From contig NZ_CZPZ01000001.1 in NCBI RefSeq assembly GCF_001458775.1, forward strand, positions 124,001-188,000: DNA of 64,000 nucleotides. The letters are read 5' to 3'. Every line of letters begins with the position of its first letter. Positions within the stretch are counted from its first letter, which is position 1. A program made the position numbers and the translations under genes. The notes below the pieces were generated by a model. That model was not told the origin of the DNA and did not search any database. It saw only the letters and a program-made list of their open reading frames with translations. This document shows, piece by piece, positions 25,355-48,987 of the stretch. The stretch comes from Candidatus Nitrospira nitrificans (GTDB taxonomy: Bacteria; Nitrospirota; Nitrospiria; Nitrospirales; Nitrospiraceae).

Positions 25355-27019
25355 TCATTCGATACCGGCATACAATATAGGCATGTGTGACATCGGAGCG
25401 TCCGCCTCCGGCGCGGATGCGAGATGGGAGGCCACGAATTCCGTCTCCCGGCGCCACCGCTGATATGCCGCCGCATGATGTCTCGCCATTCGCTCCAGCC
25501 CTTGCACATTGTCCTGATGCAAAAGGCGAAGCGCCGCCGTGGTGAGCGGTTTGGTGGCCCACGTCGACGTGCCGGCCTGAGCAACCTTCTGCCGCTCCTC
25601 CGTTTGTGCCCGCTGCAGCGCTTGAATCGCCTGAACGGGAATCGGTGTTTGTCCGGTGAGCCGAACAATATGGTCGGCCCGTCGGCAGAGGCTGTGAAGC
25701 AGCGGCATCATTGTCCGAATACAGGACACTCCCTCGTCGTGGTTCGGAGCGGGGCGGTCGAAAGCCGGGAGTCGGCTCGGTCGGCCGGTGAACGACTCGT
25801 ACCAGCGGCGACGCCAGAAGGCCGCATACCAGGCGACCGCTGCATCTTCGTGGCCGGAGACGAGTTCAAAACTCCCCAACTGATCCGCATCGATGCCCGA
25901 TCGATATAAACGATAGCCCGGCACCGCCGCAGGCGGCGAACCCTGTCCCACCACATGCTGCATGACGGCGGCAACGGCATCGATTGGGATTCGTTCTTTA
26001 CAGGCATGGTGCGAACAGACCTGCTCAAACCCGCAGGGCGCGCACTCCAGATCCGGCTGCATCACCCAATGCCCCGGCCCATACGGACCGGTCTCTTGAA
26101 AATCAACATGGCCGACCGATAGATCAATGACCGGAGTCTGCACGCCCACGGCCAAATGCATCGGTCCCGTGTCGTTCGTGAGCAACAACCGACAGTCCGC
26201 CAACAGCGCGACGAGCTGCGCCAGCGTCGTGTGCCCGGCGGCATTCTTCATCACGCTGCGCCCACCTGCCTCTCGATACGTCCGAATGACCTGGGCGATC
26301 GTGTCCTGTTCCGAGGAGGATCCGATGAACAGAATGCCGCCGTCCCACTGTTTGCTGAACCGGGCCAACGTCATGCCGAAATGCTGCGGCCGCCAGGCTT
26401 TCATGACGTCACTTGCCCCCGCCTGCACCGCGATCCATTCCCGCTCCGGCCCAGCCTGGCTCGACAGAAAACGCTTCGCCCAGTCCGTGCTTTCAGCCGG
26501 TGCCGCCACATGCAGCGGCGCAAACGCGCCCGGTCTGCTCCCGCCCATGGCATAGACATCGACGAGATTGAATCGGTTGATCCGGCGAATCTGATGGATA
26601 TCCGTAAAGTACGCCATCCAGGGATTGTCGATGACCGTCCCGCCGTCCCACGCGCTCCGTGCGCCTCGGATATCAGGGGCGCCGACATACTCAGCCAACA
26701 GGGCGCTGGGCCGGTTGAATGTCAGATTGACGATGCGGTCGTAGCGGCGCTGACTCAAATCTCCGGCCCATGTCGCGACCTCTCGATACAACACCACGGT
26801 ATCTTTGACGCAGGCGCGGCTCTCATCGATCAATGCATGAAAATCATACGCCATGATGTCACGCAAGCCGCTCAGCATGGAGGCGACGGGGGCAAATTGC
26901 CGATCGACCACGAGGTCCACCGCCACGTCCGGCCATTCTTCACGGAGCCGTGCCAACAGCGTGCCCATCTGCACGAGATCGCCCATGCGGGTGATGTTCA
27001 CAATCAATACTTGTTTCAT
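25355..27019 (-). CDS. GT9-type (heptosyltransferase-like) glycosyltransferase
   Basis: Residues 1-355 form a heptosyltransferase-like GT-B enzyme: VLIVNITRMGDLVQMGTLLARLREEWP at the N-terminus, VQAGASDVMKAWRPQHFG, and the nucleotide-sugar region TLAQLVALLADCRLLLTNDTGPMHLAVGVQTPVIDL. A further 200 residues, helical and unassigned, extend beyond the usual family length of about 350. The segment CAPCGFEQVCSHHACKERI has four Cys and looks structural, common in GT9 enzymes near ADP/GDP-heptose loci. It probably transfers a heptose to the flagellin glycan. The start is taken as ATG 27019 (MKQVLIVN). Confidence 0.85.
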   Translation of the reverse strand: MKQVLIVNITRMGDLVQMGTLLARLREEWPDVAVDLVVDRQFAPVASMLSGLRDIMAYDFHALIDESRACVKDTVVLYREVATWAGDLSQRRYDRIVNLTFNRPSALLAEYVGAPDIRGARSAWDGGTVIDNPWMAYFTDIHQIRRINRFNLVDVYAMGGSRPGAFAPLHVAAPAESTDWAKRFLSSQAGPEREWIAVQAGASDVMKAWRPQHFGMTLARFSKQWDGGILFIGSSSEQDTIAQVIRTYREAGGRSVMKNAAGHTTLAQLVALLADCRLLLTNDTGPMHLAVGVQTPVIDLSVGHVDFQETGPYGPGHWVMQPDLECAPCGFEQVCSHHACKERIPIDAVAAVMQHVVGQGSPPAAVPGYRLYRSGIDADQLGSFELVSGHEDAAVAWYAAFWRRRWYESFTGRPSRLPAFDRPAPNHDEGVSCIRTMMPLLHSLCRRADHIVRLTGQTPIPVQAIQALQRAQTEERQKVAQAGTSTWATKPLTTAALRLLHQDNVQGLERMARHHAAAYQRWRRETEFVASHLASAPEADAPMSHMPILYAGIE

Positions 27020-27040
27020 ATCCAATCTGTAACGGGCGCG

Positions 27041-27110: not shown

Positions 27111-28928
27111 TCATACGAGATCCCTCGTTTCCGTGCGATAACTGTCCAGCATCAAGATCAGCAATTCTTCTCGCGCCAGTTCCCGACCGGCGCCGTTCGC
27201 CTTGATCCGGGCTGCCACATCTTTGAGCTCCACGCGTTGGTTGGGCGGAAATCCCCGGAGCAGCGCCGCAAGCTCGGGGGGCGAGTCGGCGCGCTGAGCC
27301 AGGGCGCCGGCGTTGCGATCGCCCCGCACCATGGCTCCTATTCGATCCGGCTGGTGCATGCCGATCACCGCCAGCAGCTCGCTCATGCGATGCGCGTACG
27401 TATGCTGCTCCAGCACACGGCGGCGCGCGGCGGCGGCGATTTCACGCCGTCCGGATGGATCGGCAAGCCAGGCACGGATGAGTGACGGAACATCGGCCGC
27501 CGCGGTGAAGCGGACCATCTCCTTGGAATTGAACAGATCGGGGAAGAGCGCTCGCTCGTCGACCAGCTGAAACGCGCCGCACGCAGCCAATTCAAACGTC
27601 CGAGGATTGACGAAGTCCGCCTCTGGGTCGAGTCCGTCACCGGCACAGGAATGAAGATTCAGATTGACGGCCGTGGCGTTGAAGACTTTGATGCAGGTCT
27701 CCGTATCGATGCGGGCGCCGCCGCGCTGAAGCACCGAGAGAAGAGCATCCGCGCCTTCCCATTCATTGCCCCACAGTTTGAATGACCAGTCCTTCGACAA
27801 CCATGCCGGGAGCACCGTGCGCCGGTTGGCGTAGCCGGCTCCGACGAACGACACATCGGCGCCATATTCGGTCTGTTCAGACTCGGTGAGCTCCAGGGGG
27901 CGATGCAAGGCGGGATCGGCGGCCATCGGCAGATAGTTGACCCGGCGAGCGCCCGCTCGCATGAGCGCGTCGACGCACGACGCTTGCTGGATGACGAACC
28001 AATAGTCGTACCCACCCGCCAACTGCTGCCAATAGGTCAGATGCCGGTAGTTTTCGACAAACCATATCGCGGTCAAAAATTTCTTCTTGCGCAGATGCTC
28101 GAGCACCGCGAGATTCAGCGGCGCCTGCGCGAGCGCCAACACAAGATCCGGAGGGTCTTCGGCGAGATGCGTCACCACACCCAAACTCAGCAAATCGGCA
28201 AACCGGCTTTGCATGGTCAGGCGATGCCTTGGTTCCCGGCCGGAGGCAAACAGATCGTAACTCGCCCGATGCGGACTCTGATCCAACCAGCTGACCCGAT
28301 GGCCCAGCGACTCCAGCGCCGCGACCGCATAACGTGCGATCGGAAGCGAACCGCCGTAGATGGGTCCGACGACTGCGACATGAAGCCGGCCGCTCTGCTT
28401 GGCCAGAACGATCCGACGAACTTCCGTCTCCAAATCACGATGGGCCTCGCCGTGCAGACACGCAGCCGGCTTATACGTCATGAATCGGAGCGGCCCCGAC
28501 TGCGCGGCCAGTTGCTCGGCCATGGCCACCGATGTTCCCCAGACCCATTCAACCCTGGTGATCCAGGCCTCCATCGACCTGGTCGATGCGGCATCGTTGA
28601 ACTCGGCCACATTGGGCACGACGACCGCCAGCATCGCTCCCTGCGGCTTCAGCGCGACCAAGGCTTCGACGTGATAGAGCAAACCGACACCGAGCACGAC
28701 CCCGAGTTCGCCCGCTTTCCACTCGAGCAATTGCGCTTCGGCCCACGCCCGGGCTTCTTTACGCGGATCGTATCCGCTGTGAACCCATCGACCTTCATGC
28801 GTCGCCGATGGACTCCCCTCCCGGGAAGGCACGACGGTCAGCAGACCGCCCGAGTTCTCCCGCGTGGCCTGAACAAGGGCCGGAAACCGCGTGCGAAGGC
28901 CTTCGAGATTCTGCACGAGATAGTTCAT
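27111..28928 (-). CDS. CgeB/Maf-like glycosyltransferase (putative flagellin glycosyltransferase)
   Basis: The N-terminal 180 residues resemble the motility-associated Maf/FlaX-type region (NLEGLRTRFPALVQA, HSGYDPRKEARAWAEAQ, VVLGVGLLYHVEAL). The C-terminal half (about 185-540) is a CgeB-type GT-B domain (VAVVGPIYGGSLPIARY, VSFVGAGYANRRTVLP, INLHS-like VNLNLHS, TFELAACGAFQLVDER). The last 60 residues are helical. The whole fits an enzyme that puts sugars on flagellin Ser/Thr. It overlaps the upstream GT9 gene by 4 bp (ATGA), so it is translationally coupled. The sugar donor is not known. Confidence 0.8.
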   Translation of the reverse strand: MNYLVQNLEGLRTRFPALVQATRENSGGLLTVVPSREGSPSATHEGRWVHSGYDPRKEARAWAEAQLLEWKAGELGVVLGVGLLYHVEALVALKPQGAMLAVVVPNVAEFNDAASTRSMEAWITRVEWVWGTSVAMAEQLAAQSGPLRFMTYKPAACLHGEAHRDLETEVRRIVLAKQSGRLHVAVVGPIYGGSLPIARYAVAALESLGHRVSWLDQSPHRASYDLFASGREPRHRLTMQSRFADLLSLGVVTHLAEDPPDLVLALAQAPLNLAVLEHLRKKKFLTAIWFVENYRHLTYWQQLAGGYDYWFVIQQASCVDALMRAGARRVNYLPMAADPALHRPLELTESEQTEYGADVSFVGAGYANRRTVLPAWLSKDWSFKLWGNEWEGADALLSVLQRGGARIDTETCIKVFNATAVNLNLHSCAGDGLDPEADFVNPRTFELAACGAFQLVDERALFPDLFNSKEMVRFTAAADVPSLIRAWLADPSGRREIAAAARRRVLEQHTYAHRMSELLAVIGMHQPDRIGAMVRGDRNAGALAQRADSPPELAALLRGFPPNQRVELKDVAARIKANGAGRELAREELLILMLDSYRTETRDLV

Positions 28929-30151
28929 GAAAGGGCCGGCTCCAGTTCATGCCAGAGCGCTTCCCGTTCGCGCGGGGGGATGGCTGCTTGACCGACCGGC
29001 GAATAATAAGCCCCCCACGTATCACAGTGGCTTGTCCATACAGTCCAGCCGATCGGCGCCTGATATCCCTGTTCGCATATCGCGGCAATGGTTTCGTCGA
29101 CCGGCCAATAAGAGGGTGAAGCGTGAAAGGCAGAGGGTGAGGCGACAGGCTTCGATTCTTCATTTCTAGGGTTCACGTCGAACGCTTCACGTCGAACGTC
29201 CTCGGCCTGCCACACCACATGATGGAAACCATACGGCCCCGTTTCATGAACCCGTGCCCGCGCAAAATACCACCCGATCACCGGCCTGCCGAGCGCCGCC
29301 GCGAGATGCAGAGGACCTGTGTCCGAGCCGACCACGCGATGGCAACGAGCGAGAATGGCGGCGAGCTGCGACAGCGAGGTGCGACCCGTCGTATCCCAAA
29401 TTCGACCCAGCGCCGAGAGAGGCACCGACGCTTGAATCTCGGCGGCTCGTTCACGCTCTGCTCCGACAAGCACAACACGGCCCTGCGACGAAGACGCAAG
29501 AAATGCGTTGATCCACCGGCGCCAGACCTCTGCGGGCACACACCGCTCGGCCTCCCCTGCTCCCACGATGAGCGCGATCCACGGAGCGCCTCGTTTGCCG
29601 ATCGGCTCCAAATCGTCAGGCAATCGGACAACCGGAGGATCGAGCGTGACGACATATCCCGGCGGAGAGACTCCACAGAGCCCGCAAAAAGCATCGGCCA
29701 GATGCACACGTTGCCCCAGCCGCCGCTGCGCCACGGCGCGTACGTAGGCGGCCCAGGGTGTCAATGCCTCGCCCAGCGGCCCATGCAACAATGGTCCTTT
29801 CATCTCTCGAGCCAATAAGGAGCCTGTCACCAGCGCCCGGCGATGTTGATTGAGAACATAGGCGCAGTCATACCGGTCCGGCGCCAATGCCGCCAGCGCG
29901 GTCTCGATTTCCATAAGATGATCGGCTCGCAAATCCTCCTGGACGGCCATCGCACGTCGCTGCCAGGCCGCTCCATCCCACTCAAGAACCTTCCCAAGGC
30001 CCGGCAATAGCCGTCCCACCTCAGCGAGATGTGAGGGACAGAGAAGATCGAACTGCGTCTCGGGATGACGCGCGCGGAGTTGCGTCATCGCCGGCAACGA
30101 TTGCACCAGATCTCCCAATCGGGCCAGTTGTATGACGAGTGCGCGTGACAT
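28925..30151 (-). CDS. GT9-type glycosyltransferase (heptosyltransferase-like)
   Basis: The 408-residue GT9 enzyme has N-terminal ALVIQLARLGDLVQSLPAMTQLRARHPETQF, central PWIALIVGAGEAERCVPAEVWRRW, and donor-site SLSQLAAILARCHRVVGSDTGPLHLAAALGRPVIGWYFARARVHETGPYG. Between about 315 and 345 the protein contains an odd Pro/Ser/Asn-rich stretch (EAFDVNPRNEESKPV, AFHASPSYW) that corresponds to an inserted GCTTCAC-type repeat. It follows the 2139-residue glycosyltransferase gene by 57 bp and overlaps the next gene by 4 bp. It is the likely second heptosyltransferase of the flagellin-glycan pathway. Confidence 0.85.
   Translation of the reverse strand: MSRALVIQLARLGDLVQSLPAMTQLRARHPETQFDLLCPSHLAEVGRLLPGLGKVLEWDGAAWQRRAMAVQEDLRADHLMEIETALAALAPDRYDCAYVLNQHRRALVTGSLLAREMKGPLLHGPLGEALTPWAAYVRAVAQRRLGQRVHLADAFCGLCGVSPPGYVVTLDPPVVRLPDDLEPIGKRGAPWIALIVGAGEAERCVPAEVWRRWINAFLASSSQGRVVLVGAERERAAEIQASVPLSALGRIWDTTGRTSLSQLAAILARCHRVVGSDTGPLHLAAALGRPVIGWYFARARVHETGPYGFHHVVWQAEDVRREAFDVNPRNEESKPVASPSAFHASPSYWPVDETIAAICEQGYQAPIGWTVWTSHCDTWGAYYSPVGQAAIPPREREALWHELEPALS
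29113..29201. repeat. GCTTCAC-type repeat inside a GT9 reading frame (family B, copy 2)
   Basis: GGGTGAAGCGTGAAAGG (about 29113-29130) and GTTCACGTCGAACGCTTCACG (about 29170-29190) form loosely inverted arms. They are read in frame in the GT9 gene, adding about 30 residues near its C-terminus. Confidence 0.55.
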
Positions 30152-30208: not shown

Positions 30209-33200
30209 TCACGAATGCGCGGCTTCCATGGTGGATACGGCTTGTTTTCTAGAGATCGCTTGCCCGAGTTCACTCAAGCCGTCATACGTGGGCGCCAGTG
30301 CGCGCAGGATGTCGTATTCTTTCTGCGCAGCTTCGATTTCCTCTCCTCGAACCAGCACACCGGCCAGCGCAAAACGAACCGCCAAGTCGGCCGGGTTGCG
30401 CAACAGGTACTTGCGCAAATACCGGCTCACCTCATCCCACCGGTTTTGTGCCGTACCGGCGCGCAAGAGCCAATGAACGGCCTCGGCATCATCCGGATAT
30501 TCCTCCAGCACTTGCAGAAACCGTTCCCAAGCTCCCTGCGTATAGGCGCGGCCCAACGAGGCCATCCCCATCCCCATCAGACATTTTTTACGATTGGCCC
30601 CGCCACGTAATGCTGAATCGAATGCGGTCTCGGCTGCCTCGTATTGTTCCCGCTGCATGCATAGGACGCCGTTCAGCAACTGTCCTTCCGCATGACTCGG
30701 GGAGGACGAGAGCAAGATCCGGAGCTGTTCCTCTGCTCCCGGCACGTTCTTCTGCTCCAGCAAGGTCCGGATCAGCGCGAGCCGCTCTGCAGGCGCCTCG
30801 ACCAACTCCAAATAGCGCGAGAGAAACTTGGTTCGACTGATCGGTTCTTGGAGACGCTCGGCCACCTTCGCGCCCCAGGACAGCACAAACTGGTCGTTCG
30901 GCCAATCGTCCGCCGACCGTAGTTCACGTTTGACGGATTCCCAATCCTGCTTCAGCGCGGCGGTTTGCGCCGCCGCCACATGCGCCCAAACGGCTCCATC
31001 CTTCACATCTTCCAACGGCACGATATCGCCGCCCAGTTGCCCATTACGAAAGATGCGTTGTAATTTGCACCCACCGACGTAGAAATGCAGGTCTTCATCG
31101 GCCGCCCACCATTGCCCCTCCCACCGCTCCAAAAAGCGCATCGCGTTTGCGTCGTCGTGAATCTTCCTTCCCGCAGTTTGGCTTTCGAGATGAAGCACGA
31201 CGCTTCGGGGTTGATAGACGACCGCGTAGCCGCGCTCCCGCACTTTCAGGCACAGATCCGCATCTTCGAATCCGTTCACGTATCCTTCGTCGAACCCGCC
31301 CACTTCCTCGAACAACGATCTCCGGATCAGCAAACACGCGGCCGTGACGATTTGGAATTCACGCCGTTGATTGACGGCCGGATGGTCGCCGGGGAAGGAT
31401 TTGCAGAAATGATAGGGCAGGCGCTGCTCCAGGTCCCGAACGACGCCGGCATGTTGCACCGTGCCATCGGGATACAAGAGCTTGCTGCCGACGATGCCCA
31501 CCTCCGACTGGGCCTCCGCTTCGGACACCAGCGAGGAAAGCCAGCCCGGCTGTGGAATCGTGTCATTGTTCAAGAACACCAGGTATCGGCCGCGCGCGGC
31601 TCGCGCTCCTTGGTTGCAGGCCTTTGCAAATCCCTCATTCTTCTCATTTCTGATAATTTGCACGTCACCGTTGAGTTCGGCAAGAAACTCCTTGGTTCCA
31701 TCAGTTGATCCATTGTCCACGACGAGGACTTCATATTCCGGCTGATCCTTGATCCGCGCCAAAGCCGTCAGGCAATCTTTCGTCAATTCCAGACGATTCC
31801 ACACGGGCATGATGATAGAGCAGACGTAGGACTTCTCGGACGCGTCGGCATGGAATCGTCGGAGATGCCGCTGCTGGCTTTCCCGCACACCGGCAATGAG
31901 CTCCGCATAGGGCGCATACTTGCGGTAGATGATCTCGGTTGTGCGCCGATAGGTCTCTCTGGTCGCGCTCGTCATGGAACTCCCGTCGTCGCGCCAGGTG
32001 AACTCCGCCGTCGTCACAGGCAGGTGCTTGAACGGAAACCGGGTGGCCATTCTGATCCAAAGATCCCAATCCTCGTGCGCGAACAGCGATTCGTCGAAGC
32101 CCCCCACCTCGTCCAAACATTGCCGCGCATGCATGACACACAATACGGGGAAATAGTTGCTGACCAGAAGATCGGCCGGACTAAACTCATTCGAGTACGG
32201 CACGTCTCGCGCGATCTCGACATACCGGCCGTCGATCTGTCGTTCATGCACGCGCCACGCATCGGTGTAGGCGATACGGCATTCGTGGCGATCGAGATAC
32301 GCGACCAGCGTTTCCAGATGATTCGGGAGATACCGATCATCATCGTCAAGATAGGCCACGTACGCGCCCTTCGCCGCGCGCAATCCGCTGTTGCGCGCCG
32401 CCGCCAACCCCCGGTTTCGATCATGGCAGATCGTCGTGATGCGGGATCGATCGGCGCAGGTGGCGACGACGGACTCCACCTCGCAGCCCGCGTCGTTCAC
32501 CACGATAATTTCGAAGTCCTGATAGGTTTGCGCGACCAGACTGGCGAGCGCCGTCTTCAGACGCTCCGGTCGATTGTATGTCGGCACGATGACGGACACT
32601 TTTGGAATGCGTGTAAAAGGAATGGGCGCTGAGTCGGCGGTCCGCTGGCAGGCCCACACTTGATAGATCGGGATCAGATTCATGGAACGCGCGTCGGCCG
32701 GGGTCGGAGCCGGTATGTATCGAAGATTCGGCACTTCGACATGAATGCGCTCGAGCCCCAATTCCGCGAACCCTTCGCTTGTCAGCAAGGCGCGGAGTTG
32801 CTCTTCGGTGACCCAGTCTTCGACCGGCTGATTCGGCGGCGCGATCGTCTTCCACCGCTCCCACATTTCGCCCCGCGGAGTCGTGAGGATGAGATAGCCC
32901 TCGGGCTTGAGGAGCTGGGCCAGCTGCGCCAGAAACTGTTCCTTTTGTCCATGCGGGACATGCTCGATTACCTCCGAAGTCAGGACGACATCGTAGGGCG
33001 CAAAGTCGGGCCGACTCAGCACACTCTCCGCCATCCCCGCTTCAAACCGCAGATGGGGAAACAGCGCGCGCGCGTGCTCGACGACGCCGGCGACCGGCTC
33101 GACGCCTTCACAGGTCCCGTACATCGTGGCAAGCTGGGTCAGCCAGCCGCGCCCGCAGCCGATGTCCAACATTCTCAACCGCTTGTTCGGCTCCTGCCGG

Positions 33201-36200
33201 CGTACGCGGCGAAGGATGTACTCCAGGAAGGCCGCGATCTTGCTCCACCGCGCCGCTTCGTCGGCGTTCGGATGGGGCGTAGACCAGGCCGGAGCATTGA
33301 CGAACAGATTCACATAAAACGCGTCTGAATTCATGACCACTCCGTTGGCCTGCTTCGCCGCATCTCGTATCGGCGGCCCGCCGAATTCGGGCTCGACTCG
33401 GCCTAATCGTCTCGCGAATGCCTTCCGTTGCGCAGTCGTACGCTCAACCAGGTCTGGGGGCATCCTATACGATCTGGTCATGTGCCCCGTTTCAATCAGT
33501 TCTATCCATCCCTCCAACACAGCAGCCCATTGACGACACGCGTCCCAATGCGCGTAGCCCGCTTCACCGAGCGCTCGGCTCAATGCCGGTTCTCGCATCA
33601 GCAATTCGACGGCCCGTCGGAAGTCGACTAAGGGAATCACCACACCGCCGGCATGTTCCTGCGCGGCGTCGCATTCGGGTGTTGCCATCCACGGCAATCG
33701 ATGGCTCATCGCTTCAAGGATGCACAGCGGAGAAGCCTCCGCATGCGAGGGCACCACCAGGACATCCGCCGCTCGCATGGCCGCGGCGACGCCCTCGGAC
33801 GAAAGCCCTGGAATAGAGAGCACCTCCGGCCGGCCTGCCAGCACCCGCCGGACGCGGGCGACATACTCCACGTCGTCCGTCTGGTGGCCGACCAAAACGA
33901 GTTTCGCCCCTTGCGGCACGGACGCAAACACCTCAAGCAACCCCACGTGGTTTTTGACCGGATAGAGGTTCGCGACATGGAGGACGACGAAGGCGTCGGG
34001 CGCAATGCCGTACTCCTTGCGAAACTCCGTGTGGGACTGCTGGGCCGGGACACCGTTCGGTAAATAGATCGTCTTGAGACCATGTTGACTGAAGAATGAC
34101 GCATCACAGCCTTGCTCCGACAACACCACGAGATGATGGGCGCGAGCCGCCAGCCGAACCACAAGGTCTGTGGCCTGTTTCATGCCGGGCAATAAGTCAC
34201 AGATTTGTTTATTCAACGTCGGCTGAAAGATCAGCCGGGTCTTCTTCGGCAACAATCCCGTCATGGCTCCATAGAACAGACCATTGACCGGTGCGCCCAC
34301 CATCACGCAGGCATCGTATTCTCCTAAACTGATGAGCCGCTCCACTTCCAGAGCACAGACGTGAATCGTCCCTTCTTGGCGATCATGAGGCGACAGGGTC
34401 ATGATCGAGAGCCCTCTGTGGGTCGTGAGGTGACGATCGGGATTCGGGTAAGTCGCAATATCGACGCGATACCCACGACCTACCAATCCGACTCCAAGCT
34501 CTTCCGCGACGCGCTCCACACCTCCGATTGACGGCCAAAAATGCGGCGTCACGATCAACGCCGATTTGGTCGGCGCTCCGTTCTGTTTTTTCGTGACGCG
34601 GTCCGCGACCATGGGTGTTGAATGCCGATCGCGTTCGCCCTTCCACTTGACCTGTTCAATCGGGATTGGCCCGTGCACAGGCAGCGCCTGTCGCGCAGCG
34701 CTATAGGGTTGCGTCAACGGGGGATCCGTCAACAACAGCCGTCTGAACACGTCCAGTTCGTGAAGACCGTAGACGCGGGCATCCTTCTCGCGATCAGCCG
34801 CCAGCGGCGCGTTGATGATCCCATGCGCGGCCCCCAACAAGGCAAAGAGCTGGAGTGGATCGCCGCTTTGGCGATAGGCATCCGCCTTGCGACGGATGTC
34901 GGAGGTCAGGACATTCCATTGCCGAACGTCTTTTTCATACATCGTCTTGTAGCGCCGGTAGATGCTGTCAACCGTGTAGGCCGTGCCATGACGACCCTTC
35001 ACATCCGGATGGAGGATCCAGTGAATGCCGCGACGGCCCATCTGCTCCAGAAGATCCATCTCGCTGGCCTTGACATCTTGAAACGCCAGCGACCTCATGA
35101 GCGCCGTTCGATAGATCTTGACTCCCTGGATCGGCAAATCGCGATCGTCGTCGAACAGGTGGAAGCAAATCATGCCCACATCGTCGGGCGCGGCCGCCAT
35201 GACCGCCTCCATTGAGGCGACGGCATCCGGCTGTAAAATCATGTCTTCGTCCACTTGGATGAAGTAATCGGTCCGACAATCCGTAATCATCCGTTGAGCC
35301 GCGGCGCTGAAGGGGCAGACGTTTCGAATGATCTCTAACCCGAACCTCGTGCCCCGCTGCGCATCCAACGCCGCTTTGCATGAGGAAAAGACAGGATCGT
35401 CTACCGTCAAGACAAACACCGTTGTCTTTGATTCCATCATGCCGGCTGGACGAGGAATCGGGACCGCCCCGCCCCTCGATTCTGATGATTGCGCGATGCC
35501 GTAGTCCGGTTGTTCCCCCGATTCGATCCAGCGGAGGGTGTCCGCCAATCGCCTCTCACTCGTATGGTATCGTTGCATCTTGCGTCGAGCATTCGCCGCG
35601 ATGCGTCCGGCTAAAGCGCGGTCGTTCAGCACTCTCTCGAGACAGGCATCGAGCGATACTGCATCGTTCGGCGAGAAACACAGGATCTCCTCCCCTTCAA
35701 TGAACAGTGAGTTATTGAGCGGACGACCAGCTACCTGATAGGTCAGCACAGGACGGCCGGCCGCCATACCTTCATAGACTCGACCTCCGTAGAATTTCGC
35801 TAAGCTCGGCAGATTCACGATGGCGGCCCACTGCGGGAGCTGCGCCATCCATTCCCTGAACTCACCTTCACGCACCTCCTGCAACATCGCGACATAGTCT
35901 GCCATCCGCTGGCCCGTCATAGGCGCCGGGTCGGCTACGCGTTTGAGTGCCGCCGCTTGCAGCTGGTCGAACGAGGTCTGATATTGGCTCTGTGGCATGC
36001 CCGGCCCCACGAAGGTCATGTGGGCTCGCAACCGTTCGTGCTCAAGCCACGTTCGACGAGGCCCATACGGATGGCCGTGGAACACGCCTGTGGAGAAACG
36101 AGGCTCCGACTCAGCCGGGACGATGAACCGCTCGGGCACCATCGTCGGCCACCATAAAGAGCGAATGCCGGCACGCCGCGCCAAGGGTTCGGTGTCCCGC

Positions 36201-36628
36201 TCATCGGGTACCAGCACATGCGTGAAGGCTCGGGATTGTTCGGCCACCGTCTGCATCCTGGTCCGAAGATGTCCGGCCCATGCATAATCGGTTTCATCGT
36301 AAGTCAGCGACTCCATGACGATCCCGACACGAACCGGCGTCAGGCCCGAGATCCACTCGAGCACGGGTGCGGTCAAAGGGGAATGAACAAGCCAAACCCA
36401 AACTTGATCGAAACGTCGGCAGCCGGTGACGGCCCTGGCCTGTTCCAGCCATCGATCCGGAGACAGAGACGTATTCGCAAACAATGGGATCGTCGTACAG
36501 GTTGCGCCGGCTGCCCGTAATCCTTCGGCAACACCGAAACAGGCTGGATAGGTCCAAGCCCTGGCCTGAGTCCATGTCGGAAACTCCAACTGCAGCAACA
36601 AAATCTGCGGTGATGATCGATGATTCAT
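30209..36628 (-). CDS. Giant multidomain glycosyltransferase/methyltransferase (2139 aa)
   Basis: One uninterrupted frame fuses seven modules: a CgeB-like GT (1-380, KFYGGRVYEGMAAGRPVLTYQ), a GT-A-like domain (400-560, FIQVDEDM), a GT4 GT-B domain (688-1050, PHFWPSIGGVERVAEELG, LPNGV, EASPLCILEAMS), a SAM methyltransferase (1103-1330, LDIGCGRGWLTQLA, LTSEVIEHV), two GT2 domains (1343-1570, VSVIVPTYNRPERLKTAL, YLDDDD; and 1602-1850, SIIMPVWNRLELTKDCL, FLNNDT, GGFDEGYVNGFEDADLCLK) and a TPR tail (about 1880-2125). It could build and cap a whole oligosaccharide on one chain. There is no membrane helix. The upstream radical SAM gene ends 21 bp before it. Its substrate is unknown; flagellin is likely from context. 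Confidence 0.9.
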   Translation of the reverse strand: MNHRSSPQILLLQLEFPTWTQARAWTYPACFGVAEGLRAAGATCTTIPLFANTSLSPDRWLEQARAVTGCRRFDQVWVWLVHSPLTAPVLEWISGLTPVRVGIVMESLTYDETDYAWAGHLRTRMQTVAEQSRAFTHVLVPDERDTEPLARRAGIRSLWWPTMVPERFIVPAESEPRFSTGVFHGHPYGPRRTWLEHERLRAHMTFVGPGMPQSQYQTSFDQLQAAALKRVADPAPMTGQRMADYVAMLQEVREGEFREWMAQLPQWAAIVNLPSLAKFYGGRVYEGMAAGRPVLTYQVAGRPLNNSLFIEGEEILCFSPNDAVSLDACLERVLNDRALAGRIAANARRKMQRYHTSERRLADTLRWIESGEQPDYGIAQSSESRGGAVPIPRPAGMMESKTTVFVLTVDDPVFSSCKAALDAQRGTRFGLEIIRNVCPFSAAAQRMITDCRTDYFIQVDEDMILQPDAVASMEAVMAAAPDDVGMICFHLFDDDRDLPIQGVKIYRTALMRSLAFQDVKASEMDLLEQMGRRGIHWILHPDVKGRHGTAYTVDSIYRRYKTMYEKDVRQWNVLTSDIRRKADAYRQSGDPLQLFALLGAAHGIINAPLAADREKDARVYGLHELDVFRRLLLTDPPLTQPYSAARQALPVHGPIPIEQVKWKGERDRHSTPMVADRVTKKQNGAPTKSALIVTPHFWPSIGGVERVAEELGVGLVGRGYRVDIATYPNPDRHLTTHRGLSIMTLSPHDRQEGTIHVCALEVERLISLGEYDACVMVGAPVNGLFYGAMTGLLPKKTRLIFQPTLNKQICDLLPGMKQATDLVVRLAARAHHLVVLSEQGCDASFFSQHGLKTIYLPNGVPAQQSHTEFRKEYGIAPDAFVVLHVANLYPVKNHVGLLEVFASVPQGAKLVLVGHQTDDVEYVARVRRVLAGRPEVLSIPGLSSEGVAAAMRAADVLVVPSHAEASPLCILEAMSHRLPWMATPECDAAQEHAGGVVIPLVDFRRAVELLMREPALSRALGEAGYAHWDACRQWAAVLEGWIELIETGHMTRSYRMPPDLVERTTAQRKAFARRLGRVEPEFGGPPIRDAAKQANGVVMNSDAFYVNLFVNAPAWSTPHPNADEAARWSKIAAFLEYILRRVRRQEPNKRLRMLDIGCGRGWLTQLATMYGTCEGVEPVAGVVEHARALFPHLRFEAGMAESVLSRPDFAPYDVVLTSEVIEHVPHGQKEQFLAQLAQLLKPEGYLILTTPRGEMWERWKTIAPPNQPVEDWVTEEQLRALLTSEGFAELGLERIHVEVPNLRYIPAPTPADARSMNLIPIYQVWACQRTADSAPIPFTRIPKVSVIVPTYNRPERLKTALASLVAQTYQDFEIIVVNDAGCEVESVVATCADRSRITTICHDRNRGLAAARNSGLRAAKGAYVAYLDDDDRYLPNHLETLVAYLDRHECRIAYTDAWRVHERQIDGRYVEIARDVPYSNEFSPADLLVSNYFPVLCVMHARQCLDEVGGFDESLFAHEDWDLWIRMATRFPFKHLPVTTAEFTWRDDGSSMTSATRETYRRTTEIIYRKYAPYAELIAGVRESQQRHLRRFHADASEKSYVCSIIMPVWNRLELTKDCLTALARIKDQPEYEVLVVDNGSTDGTKEFLAELNGDVQIIRNEKNEGFAKACNQGARAARGRYLVFLNNDTIPQPGWLSSLVSEAEAQSEVGIVGSKLLYPDGTVQHAGVVRDLEQRLPYHFCKSFPGDHPAVNQRREFQIVTAACLLIRRSLFEEVGGFDEGYVNGFEDADLCLKVRERGYAVVYQPRSVVLHLESQTAGRKIHDDANAMRFLERWEGQWWAADEDLHFYVGGCKLQRIFRNGQLGGDIVPLEDVKDGAVWAHVAAAQTAALKQDWESVKRELRSADDWPNDQFVLSWGAKVAERLQEPISRTKFLSRYLELVEAPAERLALIRTLLEQKNVPGAEEQLRILLSSSPSHAEGQLLNGVLCMQREQYEAAETAFDSALRGGANRKKCLMGMGMASLGRAYTQGAWERFLQVLEEYPDDAEAVHWLLRAGTAQNRWDEVSRYLRKYLLRNPADLAVRFALAGVLVRGEEIEAAQKEYDILRALAPTYDGLSELGQAISRKQAVSTMEAAHS

Positions 36629-36649: not shown

Positions 36650-38266
36650 TTAACCATTGGGCCGCGTCGGCGAACCGTAATGACCGGCCGGAGCCACCAG
36701 TTCTCTGTCGAGTGGCTCGATCTGCACCAGATCCGGTGACTTGACTGCTTGGCCCGAGTCTGCCGCGATTGCAACAGGCATATCCGTGACGCTCCCAAAT
36801 CCGCCGTCGCCGAGACTGACCAGCTGCTCATCCGACCGTCGTCCGGATAATTGGAACAACTTCTTCGAGAGGAGCCGCGCAACCCGTATCAGCATAAGCG
36901 ATCCACCGATGACCCCATGCTTTTGCAGCATGGGAATCCAGCGCCAAGGCGCGCTATAGATGCTGACGAAGCCTTCGTTTTGTAGATCGATCAGATCTTG
37001 GGGCTTCAGATCGCCGACGATCGTGACGGCGGAACCGTAACGCCGATATTCGGAAAAATCCTTCGTCATCAACTTGACACCCTTGTCGCCGTTCACGGCC
37101 AGTTCGTGAAATTCGGTTCCGGGATACGGTACCGCAATGGCGAAGTTTGCCTGTTTGACTTCCCGCGCGTTGCGCAGAAACTTCAGCGTGGCGCGGACTG
37201 TTTCCCGCGTCTCACCCGGCAGCCCGATCATCACGCTGTTCAGCGCTTCGACGCCGTGCTTATTACAGATGCCGTTAGCTCGCACATAGTGCTCCAAGGG
37301 CACCTGCTTCTTCATCGTTCTTCGGATTTCAGGATCCACGGTTTCCAGTCCGAACGACAGACGGATCAGGCCGCTGCGGACCAAACGGGCGATAACCTCG
37401 TCCTCCACCAAGTTGGCTCTGGTGCTACCCTCGAACGTGATATTCAATTTTTCCTGATCTATACAGTCCGCAATTTCCAGAATGTGGTCCTTCCACAAGG
37501 TCATGACGTCGTCGACAATGTAGAAGTGCCGCGTGCCGAATTTCTCCACGACGGACTTCATCTCGTCGACCACCGTGCGGGGGGACCGTACCCGCATTTC
37601 GGTCGTCTTGAGCGCTTCCGACGCGCAGAAAATGCATTTCCAAGGACAGCCCCGCATCGTCTGAATCGACGTAAAGGGCAGCCGGCCTCGGAGCGTGCCC
37701 AGCTTGTAAAGCGGCATCTTCAGCTGATGCCGAGCCGGAAACGGCAGTGCGTCCAGATCCGTGATGTCGGCCGGTGGCCCGGTGGAGACCGCGCAACCGT
37801 TCTTCCAGTAGATAATTCCCGCGACAGAGGCAATGTCTTGGCCCCGCTCATACCGGTCGAGAAATTGCGGCCACGATTCTTCCGCCTCCCCGATGAACGC
37901 GTAGTCGAAGGCGGGAAGCAGCGCCCGCTCTTTCATAATCGTAATGTGCGGGCCGCCCACGGCGATCGGTATGTGGGGAGCGAGGCGCTTGATTCCCTCG
38001 GCAACCGCCTTGCTGAGATGGAAAAAAGGGCTGGTCGCCGTAAACCCTACGACGTCCGGCTGGAGCGCCACGGCTCGCTGTGCCATATCTTCCAGCGTCA
38101 TTTGCTCCGCCTCACCGTCCATGACGGTCACATCGTGACCGTGCCGTTCGGCAATGGCGGCCAACAGCGCCAGATTCAGCGGAGGCCAGGTGGAGTTGCG
38201 TCTCGCAAAGTGGCCAAAGAGACCGTACGCTCCCGTCCAACTCGGATACAGCAAAAGCACTTTCAT
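36650..38266 (-). CDS. B12-binding-domain radical SAM protein
   Basis: The 538-residue protein has an N-terminal cobalamin-binding-like Rossmann domain (about 1-145: PPLNLALLAAIAERHGHDVTVMDGEA, DVVGFTATSPFFHLSKAVAEGIK, GGPHITIM). A radical SAM core follows with Cys207, Cys211 and Cys214 (TMRGCPWKCIFCASE), and a C-terminal region holds LSFGLETVDPEIRRTMKK and VMIGLPGETRETVRATLKFL. The DxHxxG motif of cobalamin-dependent methyltransferases is not evident, so the B12 domain may be cofactor-free. In this operon it probably acts on a nucleotide sugar or glycan. ATG 38266 has a CGGAGG site. Confidence 0.85.
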   Translation of the reverse strand: MKVLLLYPSWTGAYGLFGHFARRNSTWPPLNLALLAAIAERHGHDVTVMDGEAEQMTLEDMAQRAVALQPDVVGFTATSPFFHLSKAVAEGIKRLAPHIPIAVGGPHITIMKERALLPAFDYAFIGEAEESWPQFLDRYERGQDIASVAGIIYWKNGCAVSTGPPADITDLDALPFPARHQLKMPLYKLGTLRGRLPFTSIQTMRGCPWKCIFCASEALKTTEMRVRSPRTVVDEMKSVVEKFGTRHFYIVDDVMTLWKDHILEIADCIDQEKLNITFEGSTRANLVEDEVIARLVRSGLIRLSFGLETVDPEIRRTMKKQVPLEHYVRANGICNKHGVEALNSVMIGLPGETRETVRATLKFLRNAREVKQANFAIAVPYPGTEFHELAVNGDKGVKLMTKDFSEYRRYGSAVTIVGDLKPQDLIDLQNEGFVSIYSAPWRWIPMLQKHGVIGGSLMLIRVARLLSKKLFQLSGRRSDEQLVSLGDGGFGSVTDMPVAIAADSGQAVKSPDLVQIEPLDRELVAPAGHYGSPTRPNG

Positions 38267-38312: not shown

Positions 38313-40142
38313 TCATGGTTGCATCGACTTCACGACGTCCGGGTACTCCGGACTCATCCATCCCTCTGCCGGGTCAATCAGCATATTCTCCTTGAACTCC
38401 TCACGAGGCAGATAGGGATACATGTCTTCGATCGGCGTCTTCCATCCGAAGATTCTGGGTTCGTAGGTGTGATACTCGTCCATGTCGACGTCGCACACGA
38501 CAGGCCCGTCGTAACGCAGCACTTCCTCGATCTTGACGTCCATCTCCGCGTGATTGATGATGGTCACGGTTTTGATCCCATAGGCCTGTGCCAACTTGAC
38601 GAAGTTGGGAGGGCGATAGCCCTTCGGCCCACATGCCTCCGCCCGGCCCTGGAAGTTTGTTTCTTGATAGGCCTTCGTGATCCCATAGATATGATTGTTC
38701 AGTATGAACGTCTTGACCTTGACGCCATAGTTCACGAAAGTCTGCATTTCTTGAGGGTTCATGTTGAATCCGCCGTCTCCGATCGTACACACCACCTGCC
38801 TCGATGGATCGGCGAACCAAGCCCCCATGGCACCCGCAAATGAAAACCCCATGGGAGAATTGCCGTTGTTCGTCAGATTCCGCTGGCCATACTTCGTCTC
38901 GAACGCGTGGTTGCTGACGACGATATTGCCGCCGCAATCGCCGACCAGAATATCGCTCGCACCCATCTTGTCCGACAGGCGCCGCATGAAGGCGTAGGGA
39001 TGCACCCGTTCTTTTTGCGCGAAGAACTCCGGCCTGACAGGATCGTACTTGCATTTCCACTCCATCACCCGTTCCGTCCATCCCGCACGCACCGGCATCG
39101 GCTTTGAGGACCGTTCCAACGCCACCATAAGTCGATGCGCGAAGACTTTGGCGTCGCAGAGAATATTGACGTCGAAAGGGACTTGCTGGAACTTCCGCTG
39201 CACCATGGCCGGATCAATCTCGACGAGATATTTTTTAGCCGTCCGCGCAAAGCTCCGGACATTGCCGCCGGTAATGCGTCCTGATATCCGGCTTCCGATC
39301 GACAGGAGCAGATCGCTGTTTTGAATGCCGAAGTTGCGCCCGGCTCCCCCGTAAGTCCCGACACGGCCTCCATACCATTCATAGTCGGAGGTGATCACGT
39401 CCAGGGCATTCCAGGTCGGGAAACAGGGAATCTTCAGCCGGCGTCCCAACTCCCGCACATCGTCCTGCGCGTCAGCGAGGCGCACACCCCCGCCCACGAG
39501 GATGACAGGTCGCTCCGCCGACCGCAGATCGTCGAGTAACCGTTCGATCTGCGCGTCGACCACGCCCAGATCGAACGGGGCCATCGCCGGAATATCGAAT
39601 CCGATGAGCTGCTTGGCGTCGACCGTCGCCTTCTGAACGTCGAGCGGAATATCGAGCAACACCGGCCCCGGTCTCCCGCTCTGACACAGCCAGAGAGCCT
39701 TTTCCAACTCGTAGCGGATATCTTCAGGCTGCACAATCATCTTGGCGTACTTCGTCACGGGAGCCGCCATCGCCACAATATCCGTTTCTTGAAATCCGAC
39801 CTGTCTGATCGATGGATCCGGACGCAGAAACCTCGAGTTGATCTGTCCGGTGAGAAAAACGCACGGAATCGAATCGTAGAAACAGTTCCCCATCGAGGTG
39901 AGGAGGTTCATCCCTCCGGGACCGCTGGTCGCAATGGCCACCCCAGGAAGGCCTTTCACCTTGGCGTAGCCTTCGGCGGCAAATCCACCGGCCTGCTCGT
40001 GCATAACCGCAACGTATTCAGTTGCAGCGGTGCGGGTAAACGCATCAACGAGATCGCCGTTAGCCGCGCCGTAGACGACGAACATCTTGTCGATGCCCCG
40101 CTCGGCTAAGCTATGAATGAGAAAATCCGCGACTTTGACCAT
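38313..40142 (-). CDS. TPP-dependent enzyme, acetolactate-synthase-like
   Basis: The 609-residue protein has all three domains of the acetolactate synthase/pyruvate oxidase fold. The PYR domain carries catalytic Glu49 (VMHEQAGGFAAEGYAKVKG, ATSGPGGMNLLTSMGN). The central domain is at about 195-330. The PP domain has the TPP/Mg motif TIGDGGFNMNPQEMQTFVNYGVKVKTFILNNHIYGI. The surface loops (GDCGGNIVVSNHAFETKYGQRNL) are unlike housekeeping IlvB/IlvI. In a sugar locus it resembles in kind YerE-type enzymes, which attach a two-carbon unit to a keto sugar. That is inference; a 2-oxo-acid decarboxylase is also possible. ATG 40142 has an AGAAGGAGAACAGC site. Confidence 0.85.
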   Translation of the reverse strand: MVKVADFLIHSLAERGIDKMFVVYGAANGDLVDAFTRTAATEYVAVMHEQAGGFAAEGYAKVKGLPGVAIATSGPGGMNLLTSMGNCFYDSIPCVFLTGQINSRFLRPDPSIRQVGFQETDIVAMAAPVTKYAKMIVQPEDIRYELEKALWLCQSGRPGPVLLDIPLDVQKATVDAKQLIGFDIPAMAPFDLGVVDAQIERLLDDLRSAERPVILVGGGVRLADAQDDVRELGRRLKIPCFPTWNALDVITSDYEWYGGRVGTYGGAGRNFGIQNSDLLLSIGSRISGRITGGNVRSFARTAKKYLVEIDPAMVQRKFQQVPFDVNILCDAKVFAHRLMVALERSSKPMPVRAGWTERVMEWKCKYDPVRPEFFAQKERVHPYAFMRRLSDKMGASDILVGDCGGNIVVSNHAFETKYGQRNLTNNGNSPMGFSFAGAMGAWFADPSRQVVCTIGDGGFNMNPQEMQTFVNYGVKVKTFILNNHIYGITKAYQETNFQGRAEACGPKGYRPPNFVKLAQAYGIKTVTIINHAEMDVKIEEVLRYDGPVVCDVDMDEYHTYEPRIFGWKTPIEDMYPYLPREEFKENMLIDPAEGWMSPEYPDVVKSMQP

Positions 40143-40160: not shown

Positions 40161-41669
40161 TCATGAGACCGCCGGAGCGACCGACTCATGGTGACGACGC
40201 CCGATCTTACGGGTGCACATGTCGCGCACGTGCCGGACCGCCGTGGAACCGAAGGTGCGTTGCATCATCGCCAGGTACCCGTCATTCGTGAAGTACTCCT
40301 GGAAAGCCCTATCCCGAAAATCCAAAACTTGCGTGGCCTGAAGCGTCTCTGTCGGCAACGGCAGACAGTCGTACGCGTGCTGTGAATAGCCGATCCAGCC
40401 CGGTCCTCCGATATCGTCCGGCAACGGCCACTGTCGCTGTTTGGCCAGGTCGTAGAGCGGCGAGCCCGGGTACGCCATCGCGCAATAAAAGTTGGCCCAC
40501 TCCGTGTTCAATTCGAGCGCCAGATTGAGCGTGGCGCGCATACTGTCCAGATCGTCGTCCGGCAAACCGAAGATGTAATTGGCGGCCACATGGATTCCGT
40601 GCGACTGAATCTTCCTGATGGTCGAAAAAATTTCCCGCTCGCCGAACCGGCCCTTTTCGACGCCGTCTCGCACATGCTGGCTGCCGGACTCAATACCCAA
40701 CCCGAGCCAGTTGAAACCCGCAGCTTTGAGCCGTTCGAGCACCTCGTCCTGTACGGTATCCACTCGGGCATAGGCCCAAAGATTGAGGCTATACCGGCGG
40801 TCAATGATCCGGTCGCAGATGCCGAGCACATGCCGGCGATTCAAGACGAACATCTCGTCCGGAATTTTGATGTTCGTGACGCCGAACTCGTTCACCAGAC
40901 GGTCGATCTGCCCGATCACGTTATCCGGACTCCAGGTCCGCAGCATCGGCTGCTCGAAGGGCGCATTGATGCAACAGAATGAACACTTGAACGGACAGCC
41001 CAGGCTCGTCTGTAACGACGCGTAGGGGCTGCGGGAATCCAACTGATGAAAACAATGCCAGTTGTGGGCCCGGTACCGCCCCATGTCCAGAATCTCCCAG
41101 GCTTGGCCCGGGAGCGTGGCGTCAAGATCCATGATGAGCGGCACGGGAGGATTGGAAGTCGGTCGGCCTCCATCGAAATACCATAATCCAGGCACCTCTC
41201 TCAGCCGCCGGCCCTTCCCGATTAGGACCTCGAACAATCCAAGGACCGTCTGCGGCCCCTCACCTTGGCAGACATAGGTATAGGGCTCTTCCTCTAACGT
41301 CCGTTTCGGGAGCGCCGAGGGATGCGTGCCGATGACCAACGTTGGAATGTCGGCGAGCTCGTTGAGTCGTTCACAGACCAGCCGACCCGCCGGCATACAT
41401 TGCGTGGAAGCAGACGGTTGTTGTCCATACATCACGAACACCGCGAGAGCGGGATCCGCCGCGACGATCGCCTCCGCGGTCTGCTGATGATCGAAGCCGG
41501 AGGCTTCCGCATCCACAATCGCGACCTCATAGCCCTGCCTGCGCATGAAGGCGGCCAGGAGTCCGGCCCAGACCGGTGGCTCGATTGCGGCCAAGTCCTT
41601 GCCGAGATCTTGATAGACCTGGATTCGGCTCGGAGGGGCCACGAACAACACGCTACGCGGCTTTGACAC
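40161..41669 (-). CDS. B12-binding-domain radical SAM protein (second copy)
   Basis: The 502-residue protein has an N-terminal Rossmann/B12-like half (SVLFVAPPSRIQVYQ, PVWAGLLAAFMRRQGYEVAIVDAEA, LVIGTHPSAL), then a radical SAM core with Cys225, Cys229 and Cys232 (QTSLGCPFKCSFCCINAP), GLGIESGSQHVRDGVEKG and NYIFGLPDDDLDSMRATL. It resembles BchE-like and other oxygen-independent methyl/cyclising enzymes. The start is GTG 41669, behind GGGAGGCTATC; it overlaps the upstream aminotransferase end by 17 bp, so the two are co-translated. It follows the same layout as the 538-residue protein but is clearly a different subfamily. Confidence 0.85.
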   Translation of the reverse strand: MSKPRSVLFVAPPSRIQVYQDLGKDLAAIEPPVWAGLLAAFMRRQGYEVAIVDAEASGFDHQQTAEAIVAADPALAVFVMYGQQPSASTQCMPAGRLVCERLNELADIPTLVIGTHPSALPKRTLEEEPYTYVCQGEGPQTVLGLFEVLIGKGRRLREVPGLWYFDGGRPTSNPPVPLIMDLDATLPGQAWEILDMGRYRAHNWHCFHQLDSRSPYASLQTSLGCPFKCSFCCINAPFEQPMLRTWSPDNVIGQIDRLVNEFGVTNIKIPDEMFVLNRRHVLGICDRIIDRRYSLNLWAYARVDTVQDEVLERLKAAGFNWLGLGIESGSQHVRDGVEKGRFGEREIFSTIRKIQSHGIHVAANYIFGLPDDDLDSMRATLNLALELNTEWANFYCAMAYPGSPLYDLAKQRQWPLPDDIGGPGWIGYSQHAYDCLPLPTETLQATQVLDFRDRAFQEYFTNDGYLAMMQRTFGSTAVRHVRDMCTRKIGRRHHESVAPAVS

Positions 41670-42858: not shown

Positions 42859-42863
42859 TGTCC

Positions 42864-44695: not shown

Positions 44696-44728
44696 GCTGC
44701 TCCTTCCCGTGCCCGTCCACGGATGGCG

Positions 44729-45676: not shown

Positions 45677-45683
45677 CGGTAAT

Positions 45684-47839: not shown

Positions 47840-48024
47840 GGCGTTCACTCCAACTTTGTTGGTTTCGAGCGGCTGAAGCGACTATGTTCAAGATACATGC
47901 CACTGCAATCGTCTGGATTTCCGGTATAAAGCCAGGATTGCGATCCTCACATAAGGAAGGAGTAGGAAGAATTTACCGATCGGTATGGAAAGAAAGTGCT
48001 TGGGAAGGATGGGAGTGCCGGTCG

Positions 48025-48744: not shown

Positions 48745-48793
48745 ATTCCTTGCTCCGACACAATCACCCGACACCAACCGACTCTGATGACCT

Positions 48794-48821
48794 CTATCGG
48801 AACGTCATCGGTCAATCTTGA
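48794..48821 (-). promoter_or_regulatory. Sigma-28-like promoter for the ycgR-like gene
   Basis: On the minus strand TCAAGATT and TCCGATAG are separated by 16 bp between core motifs. Two mismatches on each side make it weaker than the others, but spacing and position (about 45 bp upstream of the start codon) fit. Confidence 0.5.
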
Positions 48822-48987
48822 GCGTCAGCGCGGTCGGCCGCCGGCCGTGACTTCAAGCCGATCACTGCGCGTCATGATGCGCAAACCACGATCAAGTCCG
48901 AGGCCTGGTCCGCCGATAACGGCCATGGAATCTTGCTTCCGTCGGCGCGTCCGACCGGAGCTCCTTCTGACCCGGAGTCCTAAGACT

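Follow-up and report, generated by a model that had tools for sequence, protein, structure and literature searches.

A shuffled multi-module glycosyltransferase/methyltransferase gene upstream of fliC in Nitrospira very likely builds a strain-specific sugar coat on the flagellum

Flagellin glycosyltransferases in which a GT2 domain is followed by C-terminal TPRs, encoded within the flagellar locus, have been described as the FGTs of Clostridium islands and as GmaR of Listeria, which moves GlcNAc onto flagellin (PMC13317340, PMC9638930). In C. difficile type B, the product of one gene, GT1, adds the first sugar of flagellin and that of another, GT2, adds two rhamnoses, which its methyltransferase domain is proposed to methylate (PMC5207246). 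Pseudomonas syringae carries the glycosyltransferase genes fgt1 and fgt2 upstream of fliC (Fgt1 links rhamnose to serine), and a viosamine island encoding a large transferase, VioT (1173 aa), and a methyltransferase, VioM (PMC3927599). The portion of the work on enterobacterial flagellin islands available to us describes GT41/GT2 proteins with methyltransferase domains in variable islands near fliC; we found in that portion no constant GT2-TPR tail behind front modules that are exchanged (PMC4875605).

The locus analysed here lies in a window (the whole stretch of DNA studied, 64,000 nucleotides) of a Nitrospira genome, and centers on one large gene for which we use the name MEGA. The gene and its modules, in order from the amino terminus to the carboxyl terminus, are as follows.

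30209..36628 (-): MEGA, multi-module glycosyltransferase/methyltransferase, 2139 aa, ATG start
35444..36628 (-): module 1, CgeB-like glycosyltransferase (PF13524), aa 1-395; swapped among strains; supported by Pfam, tree, identity step and model
34559..35443 (-): module 2, GT-A-like, aa 396-690; invariant DED at aa 460-462; no family above the Pfam cut-off
33434..34558 (-): module 3, GT4 glycosyltransferase, aa 691-1065; E-x7-E at 964/972
32654..33337 (-): module 4, SAM-dependent methyltransferase, aa 1098-1325; DIGCGRG motif
31859..32653 (-): module 5, GT2a, aa 1326-1590; GT2 with DDDD and ED motifs; structure like that of sugar-acceptor glycosyltransferases
31079..31858 (-): module 6, GT2b, aa 1591-1850; GT2 with NND and ED motifs; structure like that of polypeptide GalNAc-transferases
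30212..31078 (-): module 7, TPR superhelix, aa 1851-2139; constant in the family; putative flagellin dock

MEGA is like the Clostridium FGTs and GmaR in having a GT2 domain directly 5' of the TPRs (in both Pfam and the structural model) and in lying within a flagellar locus; it differs in that this unit ends a fusion of 1000-3500 residues with up to five more catalytic modules. The GT1 and GT2 genes of C. difficile type B are separate, whereas MEGA is one polypeptide that also contains CgeB-like, GT-A-like and GT4 modules and whose modules are swapped from strain to strain. The position upstream of fliC is shared with fgt1/fgt2 of P. syringae, in whose viosamine island, unlike MEGA, the methyltransferase and the sugar-specific transferase are on separate genes; fusion of glycosyltransferase and methyltransferase near fliC is shared with the enterobacterial islands, as far as the portion of that work goes.

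The sequence-only reading of this DNA had described a single open reading frame with a CgeB-like glycosyltransferase, GT4, a methyltransferase, two GT2 domains and TPRs; coordinates and Pfam agree (PF13524 at aa 271-364, E 3.5e-13; PF00534 at aa 866-1024; PF13489 at aa 1137-1287; PF00535 twice; TPRs at aa 1949-2082). The GT-A domain that it also named is probable rather than proven, because an invariant DED is joined by a PF00535 match over residues 400-660 that is only sub-threshold (E 0.03). Pfam places no PF01973 (MptE-like/Maf) domain in MEGA, and no antirepressor domain was found in it. By its substitution pattern the gene is under purifying selection (dN/dS 0.07-0.21 in every module with unsaturated dS), and copies in relatives, at 54-70% identity, lack internal stops across nearly the full length; these two results rule out a chance reading frame or an annotation artefact. 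The catalytic motifs of GT2b are kept, with NN (A2 622-623) and ED (723-724) invariant and D624 present in at least 90%.

The neighboring genes comprise a block leading to fliC on one side and a variable sugar cassette on the other.

28925..30151 (-): GT9a, GT9 (heptosyltransferase-like) gene; constant block member
27111..28928 (-): CgeB2, DUF3880/PF13524 CgeB-like glycosyltransferase gene; constant block member
25355..27025 (-): GT9b, second GT9 gene; constant block member
23794..24618 (-): fliC, short flagellin of 274 aa, Flagellin_N and Flagellin_C with little between; presumed acceptor
36650..38266 (-): rSAM1, B12-binding radical SAM gene
38313..40142 (-): TPP-dependent acetolactate-synthase-like enzyme, variable sugar cassette
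40161..41726 (-): rSAM2, B12-binding radical SAM gene, sugar cassette
41653..47848 (-): remaining sugar cassette, six genes, as listed below
41653-42897 (-): aminotransferase
42864-43628 (-): nucleotidyltransferase
43625-44695 (-): GHMP kinase
44729-45709 and 45684-46646 (-): two epimerase/dehydratase genes
46643-47848 (-): DegT aminotransferase

MEGA had been placed in front of fliC, which is true of its position but not as direct adjacency: three glycosyltransferase genes (GT9, CgeB-like, GT9) lie between, and fliC starts about 5.6 kb downstream. The order MEGA-GT9a-CgeB2-GT9b-fliC holds in every one of the 74 regions of sufficient length (the window included), and fliC is 274-275 aa long in 66 of the 74 loci.

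We surveyed 147 sampled genomes of the family; these are a part of the family, drawn evenly, and are mutually related, so that the frequencies are those of the sample and the counts are not independent. MEGA together with a full flagellin match occurs in 85 genomes, all with short fliC (about 275 aa), and in three more with short flagellin (G144, G165 and G169) MEGA is cut by contig ends; these three are therefore rejected as exceptions to the rule that short flagellin implies MEGA. Long flagellin (626-787) occurs in 13 genomes, all with Maf and none with MEGA. Maf is present in 16 of the 147, never alongside MEGA, and PF01973 has no match in MEGA-bearing genomes and none anywhere in genome G000. 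Like MEGA, Maf is a TPR-bearing glycosyltransferase beside fliC, and it holds the corresponding place in Maf-bearing Nitrospiraceae, but Maf systems differ by the PF01973 domain, nonulosonic acid genes and long flagellin. In the one such genome mapped in the window's own genus (G084), Maf and NeuB/nonulosonate genes stand in MEGA's place before a long fliC, with the same fliS-GGDEF side 3' of it as in MEGA loci. If our reading is true, the pairing of MEGA with short and of Maf with long flagellin is a natural contrast of two exclusive flagellin-coating systems within one family and even within single genera. The single genome with MEGA and no flagellin match (G089) is a contig-end case in which the region stops before fliC.

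Comparison across strains shows no single fixed machine: as judged from 81 loci, MEGA is one of many shuffled forms. GT2b (with its TPRs) is present in 81/81 loci, always last, and is the sole constant part, whereas the CgeB module is found in 55 and GTA-GT4 in 23. Modules upstream of GT2-TPR differ by gain, loss or exchange with breakpoints in the linkers, and about a dozen architectures of 1010-2309 aa result. The window type, for example, has GT2b-TPR in common with the L099 and L100 types and differs from them in its front modules. Ten relatives have GT2b with no GT2a-type match, and a sister family has giant open reading frames of up to 3496 aa in which the GT2-TPR unit is multiplied as a unit, up to three times. 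Identity changes in steps at module joints, one of them near aa 395, and synonymous divergence differs between modules of the same pair of genes (pS 0.80 in CgeB, 0.66 in GTA and 0.29 in GT4 versus L100; 0.29 in GT2a and 0.77 in GT2b versus L105). These data support modularity and swapping. The clade of the CgeB module matches the type of sugar cassette in 48 of 51 loci; among independent pairs, five of six change in the same direction and none in the opposite one (p 0.06), which is not significant once descent is allowed for, so the tendency of the N-terminal module to track the neighboring sugar genes is suggestive. GTA-GT4 presence showed no association with CgeB clade.

Structure prediction was performed on MEGA as two halves, in both of which inter-domain placement is unreliable (pTM 0.44-0.48). 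The TPR superhelix is modelled at a pLDDT of about 90, module 2 is partly of low confidence, and GT4 is best matched by 6kih (Z 33.0, rmsd 2.8, 349 aligned). GT2a matches chondroitin polymerase, WrtF and AvpGT. GT2b resembles the polypeptide GalNAc-transferase 6nqt (Z 23.7, rmsd 3.2, 237 aligned), but a sugar-acceptor enzyme, GlfT2, is matched at a similar Z (21.6), and a protein acceptor for GT2b is therefore not established. A profile of the C-terminal half matches GmaR (22ao, E 1.1e-5).

The earlier proposal of a role in flagellin glycosylation is well supported by the genomic comparison (position before fliC, short flagellin, no co-occurrence with Maf). MEGA very likely builds a strain-specific sugar coat on the flagellum, because the tail is the same in all relatives and the front is swapped among strains in the manner of a cassette. 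We consider it probable that MEGA acts as the core enzyme in O-glycosylation of flagellin by this locus, with GT2b-TPR docking and priming and the upstream modules extending and methylating. The acceptor role of GT2b-TPR, the order of action and the glycan chemistry are what we infer in the following scheme. Before export, the TPR superhelix of the constant unit would most likely capture flagellin, and GT2b would most likely put the first sugar on a serine or threonine; by conservation, S139, S142, S144, S153 and S179 in the middle of flagellin are candidate sites. With the chain held there, GT2a, the methyltransferase, GT4 and the GT-A-like and CgeB-like modules would lengthen this sugar and add methyl groups to it, and more residues would come from the enzymes encoded separately (GT9, CgeB-like and GT9). 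The N-terminal modules would be exchanged together with neighboring nucleotide-sugar genes, changing the glycan while flagellin stays constant; they could be exchangeable since a fit to the constant flagellin would be needed only at the end that docks and primes. Docking by the TPRs is plausible, since published flagellin glycosyltransferases pair a catalytic domain with TPRs and GT2-TPR is the sole constant part here.

A locus for some surface glycan (LPS, capsule or exopolysaccharide) that adjoins flagellar genes by chance is the least credible alternative, and an LPS or capsule role is largely refuted. LPS and spore-coat glycans are a known setting for GT9 and CgeB-like enzymes, and the cassette enzymes resemble those of NDP-heptose pathways, but against this stand the constant place before fliC, the mutual exclusion with Maf and the presence of MEGA in just one of 36 genomes without a flagellin match, a contig-end case; in none of the regions read does the gene lie away from flagellar genes. 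Polymerization of a repeat chain on flagellin, with GT2a and GT2b alternating like the GT2 pairs of chondroitin and heparosan synthases, is very unlikely. When the whole model is searched with Foldseek, K4CP (K4 chondroitin polymerase) and heparosan synthase 2 rank highest over the two GT2 domains, and they share with MEGA two GT2-fold domains per chain, yet they fit domain by domain (rmsd about 20-30 A when both domains are superposed together, in a model of pTM 0.48), GT2b occurs without GT2a in the ten relatives noted above, and it is GT2b, not GT2a, that resembles polypeptide GalNAc-transferases. These polymerases act on sugar chains and have no TPR, methyltransferase or flagellar link.

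A stronger competitor, though still unlikely, is that fusion merely sets a fixed ratio of independent flagellin glycosyltransferases with no ordered hand-over, the TPRs serving FliS, secretion or oligomerization rather than acceptor docking. In two loci from other lineages (L052 and L056) the same modules are split between neighboring genes, CgeB-GTA-GT4 and MT-GT2-GT2-TPR, and the full fusion is therefore not essential; the linkers, moreover, are long stretches modelled with low confidence (aa 380-398 and about 605-686). The invariably terminal position of GT2b-TPR and its multiplication as a unit in the giant reading frames favor docking without proving it. Slightly more doubtful again is an extension of our preferred reading to a true assembly line, in which the order of the modules would set that of the sugars, with the C-terminal GT2b-TPR acting next to the protein and the N-terminal modules outermost, evolution would proceed by cassette exchange with matching sugar-supply genes, and the glycan would stand in for the outer domains that the short flagellin lacks.

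Nitrospira are known as nitrite oxidisers. Literature searches on Nitrospira flagellin glycosylation, on CgeB with flagellin and on multidomain flagellin glycosyltransferases returned nothing relevant, and our reading, if true, would offer a first look at how flagellin is glycosylated in this group. It would also mean that about a dozen natural module combinations act on a nearly constant acceptor, so that the ordering of glycosyltransferases on a protein becomes directly testable. Among the 25 loci with the TPP-dependent enzyme, rSAM1 and an N-terminal Methyltransf_24 module of MEGA take each other's place: 14 have rSAM1 without the module and 11 have the module without rSAM1.

The gene at the centre of this analysis, MEGA, is borne out exactly as the sequence-only reading delimited it:

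30209-36628, minus strand: MEGA, one open reading frame of 2139 residues with an ATG start

MEGA is a real gene. The CgeB-like glycosyltransferase (GT), GT4, methyltransferase, two GT2 (GT2a and GT2b) and TPR modules ascribed to it are all backed by Pfam; the claimed GT-A domain (GTA, residues 400-660) gives a sub-threshold GT2 match only, and its DED motif is invariant in relatives. Catalytic motifs are kept in alignments of the GT4, methyltransferase and both GT2 modules, and dN/dS values of 0.07-0.21 indicate purifying selection on each module where dS is unsaturated. In AlphaFold models of the two halves (mean pLDDT 79.2 and 82.5), the C-terminal TPRs form a long superhelix; linkers joining the modules of the N-terminal half are of low confidence, and mutual module placement is unreliable (pTM 0.44-0.48). 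Two draft genomes (L156 and L106) carry MEGA as two overlapping open reading frames, a frameshift or an assembly error.

The locus is of a known type, a flagellin glycosylation island. In the window, chemotaxis and motor genes are followed by fliS, fliD, flaG, fliC, MEGA, a sugar cassette and a YcgR-type PilZ gene, and then by fliW, flgL, flgK and flgI, with GT9, CgeB-like and GT9 genes (GT9a, CgeB2 and GT9b) separating MEGA from fliC. For 80 same-family relatives, the surroundings of MEGA were examined over at most 20 kb, and the order MEGA-GT9a-CgeB2-GT9b-fliC was found in 74/74 regions reaching fliC on the same strand, window included (spacing 5.2-6.4 kb; CgeB2 appears as two open reading frames in 2 of the 74). 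Six of the remaining seven regions end too early, and one (G145) has no fliC within 7.4 kb. A sister family within the order to which the window's genome belongs has the same block. The full-length GT2b-TPR pair was found within that order only; farther out in the phylum, matches covered the GT2b domain alone. Matches to the N-terminal query are filed under Nitrospira, Nitrospiraceae, Nitrospirae, Nitrospirales or Nitrospirota, except for two short contigs that bear other names. A contig filed as Bacteroidota GS28 (L068), with a 1208-residue partial frame of three GT2 domains plus a GTA module, is probably misbinned.

The best support for MEGA acting as a flagellin glycosylation system is that it and Maf (PF01973) exclude each other among the genomes of the family. 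Of the 147 family genomes sampled, 90 have MEGA by a first search, and 111 have a flagellin-family match. A short flagellin frame (239-341 codons) is present in all 85 MEGA-positive genomes with a full flagellin match, and the 16 flagellin genomes without a MEGA match comprise 13 with long flagellins (626-787) and three with short ones, in which MEGA is present, cut off at a contig end. Maf occurs in 16/147 genomes, including all 13 with long flagellin, and by PF01973 search never with MEGA in any of the 147 (Fisher p 2e-8, uncorrected for descent). Both systems occur within each of two genera (g1 and g17). The window's own genus includes G084, where a long fliC is directly preceded by Maf, NeuB and other nonulosonate genes, and where the further-downstream neighbours (fliS remnant, GGDEF and PilZ genes) share 79-91% identity with their counterparts in the window. 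The flagellar role proposed from sequence is thus well supported, by the fixed place before fliC and the exclusivity with Maf in the sampled family. Among the Maf flagellin loci of the family are L183 (in G084), L186 (G049) and L187 (G057); the Maf protein of the latter two carries a fused N-terminal methyltransferase.

The novelty lies in one modular gene whose front can be exchanged and whose constant end putatively faces the acceptor; in the sampled family, this gene and Maf exclude each other. With module HMMs built in this analysis (GT2a counted at 200 bits or more), GT2b with a TPR tail behind it is present in 81/81 loci, compared with 63 for GT2a, 59 for the methyltransferase, 55 for CgeB and 23 for GTA-GT4; further front modules include Methyltransf_24, an FkbM methyltransferase, a B12-type radical SAM domain and extra GT2s. 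Lengths range from 1010 to 2309 residues, reaching 3496 in the sister family; G207 and G215 have two GT2b-TPR units in 2964-3028 residues, and the longest frame has three:

2618-13108 of L212 (G210, sister family): open reading frame of 3496 residues with three tandem GT2b-TPR units

L099 and L100, the two nearest relatives of the window by GT2b-TPR, differ from it and from each other in how CgeB clade and GTA-GT4 are combined. In pairwise comparison, both protein identity and synonymous divergence change abruptly at domain joints: window versus L100, CgeB 39% identity (pS 0.80), GTA 74% (0.66) and GT4 86% (0.29); window versus L105, GT2a 91% (0.29) and GT2b 63% (0.77). Such steps would be expected of recombination at module borders, not of uniform divergence.

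The CgeB tree splits largely by presence or absence of the upstream sugar cassette, and clade agrees with cassette in 48/51 loci; on the GT2b-TPR tree, this co-variation comes down to six independent pairs, of which five point in one direction and none in the other (p 0.06), and is no more than suggestive. Of the 25 loci that carry the cassette's TPP enzyme, 14 have a separate B12-binding radical SAM gene (rSAM1) but lack an N-terminal Methyltransf_24 module, and the other 11 show the reverse. On a simple reading, rSAM1 and the module may be two different means of modifying one sugar; the alternation spans two genera, with 10 of the 11 module-bearing loci in one genus. YerE attaches a two-carbon branch to a sugar, and the window's TPP enzyme (38313-40142), which is acetolactate-synthase-like but scores below the curated threshold for genuine acetolactate synthases, may act similarly.

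The best structural matches of GT2b are polypeptide GalNAc-transferases (6nqt, Z 23.7, rmsd 3.2, 237 aligned), which start O-glycans on Ser/Thr, and its profile matches GmaR; matches of GT2a act on sugar acceptors. The fold alone leaves the GT2b acceptor unsettled, because GlfT2 scores almost as high. We take GT2b-TPR as a putative docking and priming unit on flagellin because it matches GalNAc-transferases and GmaR, because it stays constant and so does the flagellin, and because flagellin glycosyltransferases of the GT2-TPR type (PMC13317340) and GmaR (PMC9638930) offer a precedent. For steps after priming, the nearest tested precedent is C. difficile, in which GT1 primes and extension falls to GT2, to which a methyltransferase domain is fused (PMC5207246). 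Ordered assembly-line action and the glycan chemistry are proposals.

A YcgR-like PilZ gene, an HD-type phosphodiesterase and a hybrid histidine kinase adjoin the island (48025-53165); the group is kept at the same place in many relatives and suggests c-di-GMP control. At 430-5070 of the window lies a histidine kinase of 1546 residues with many PAS domains.
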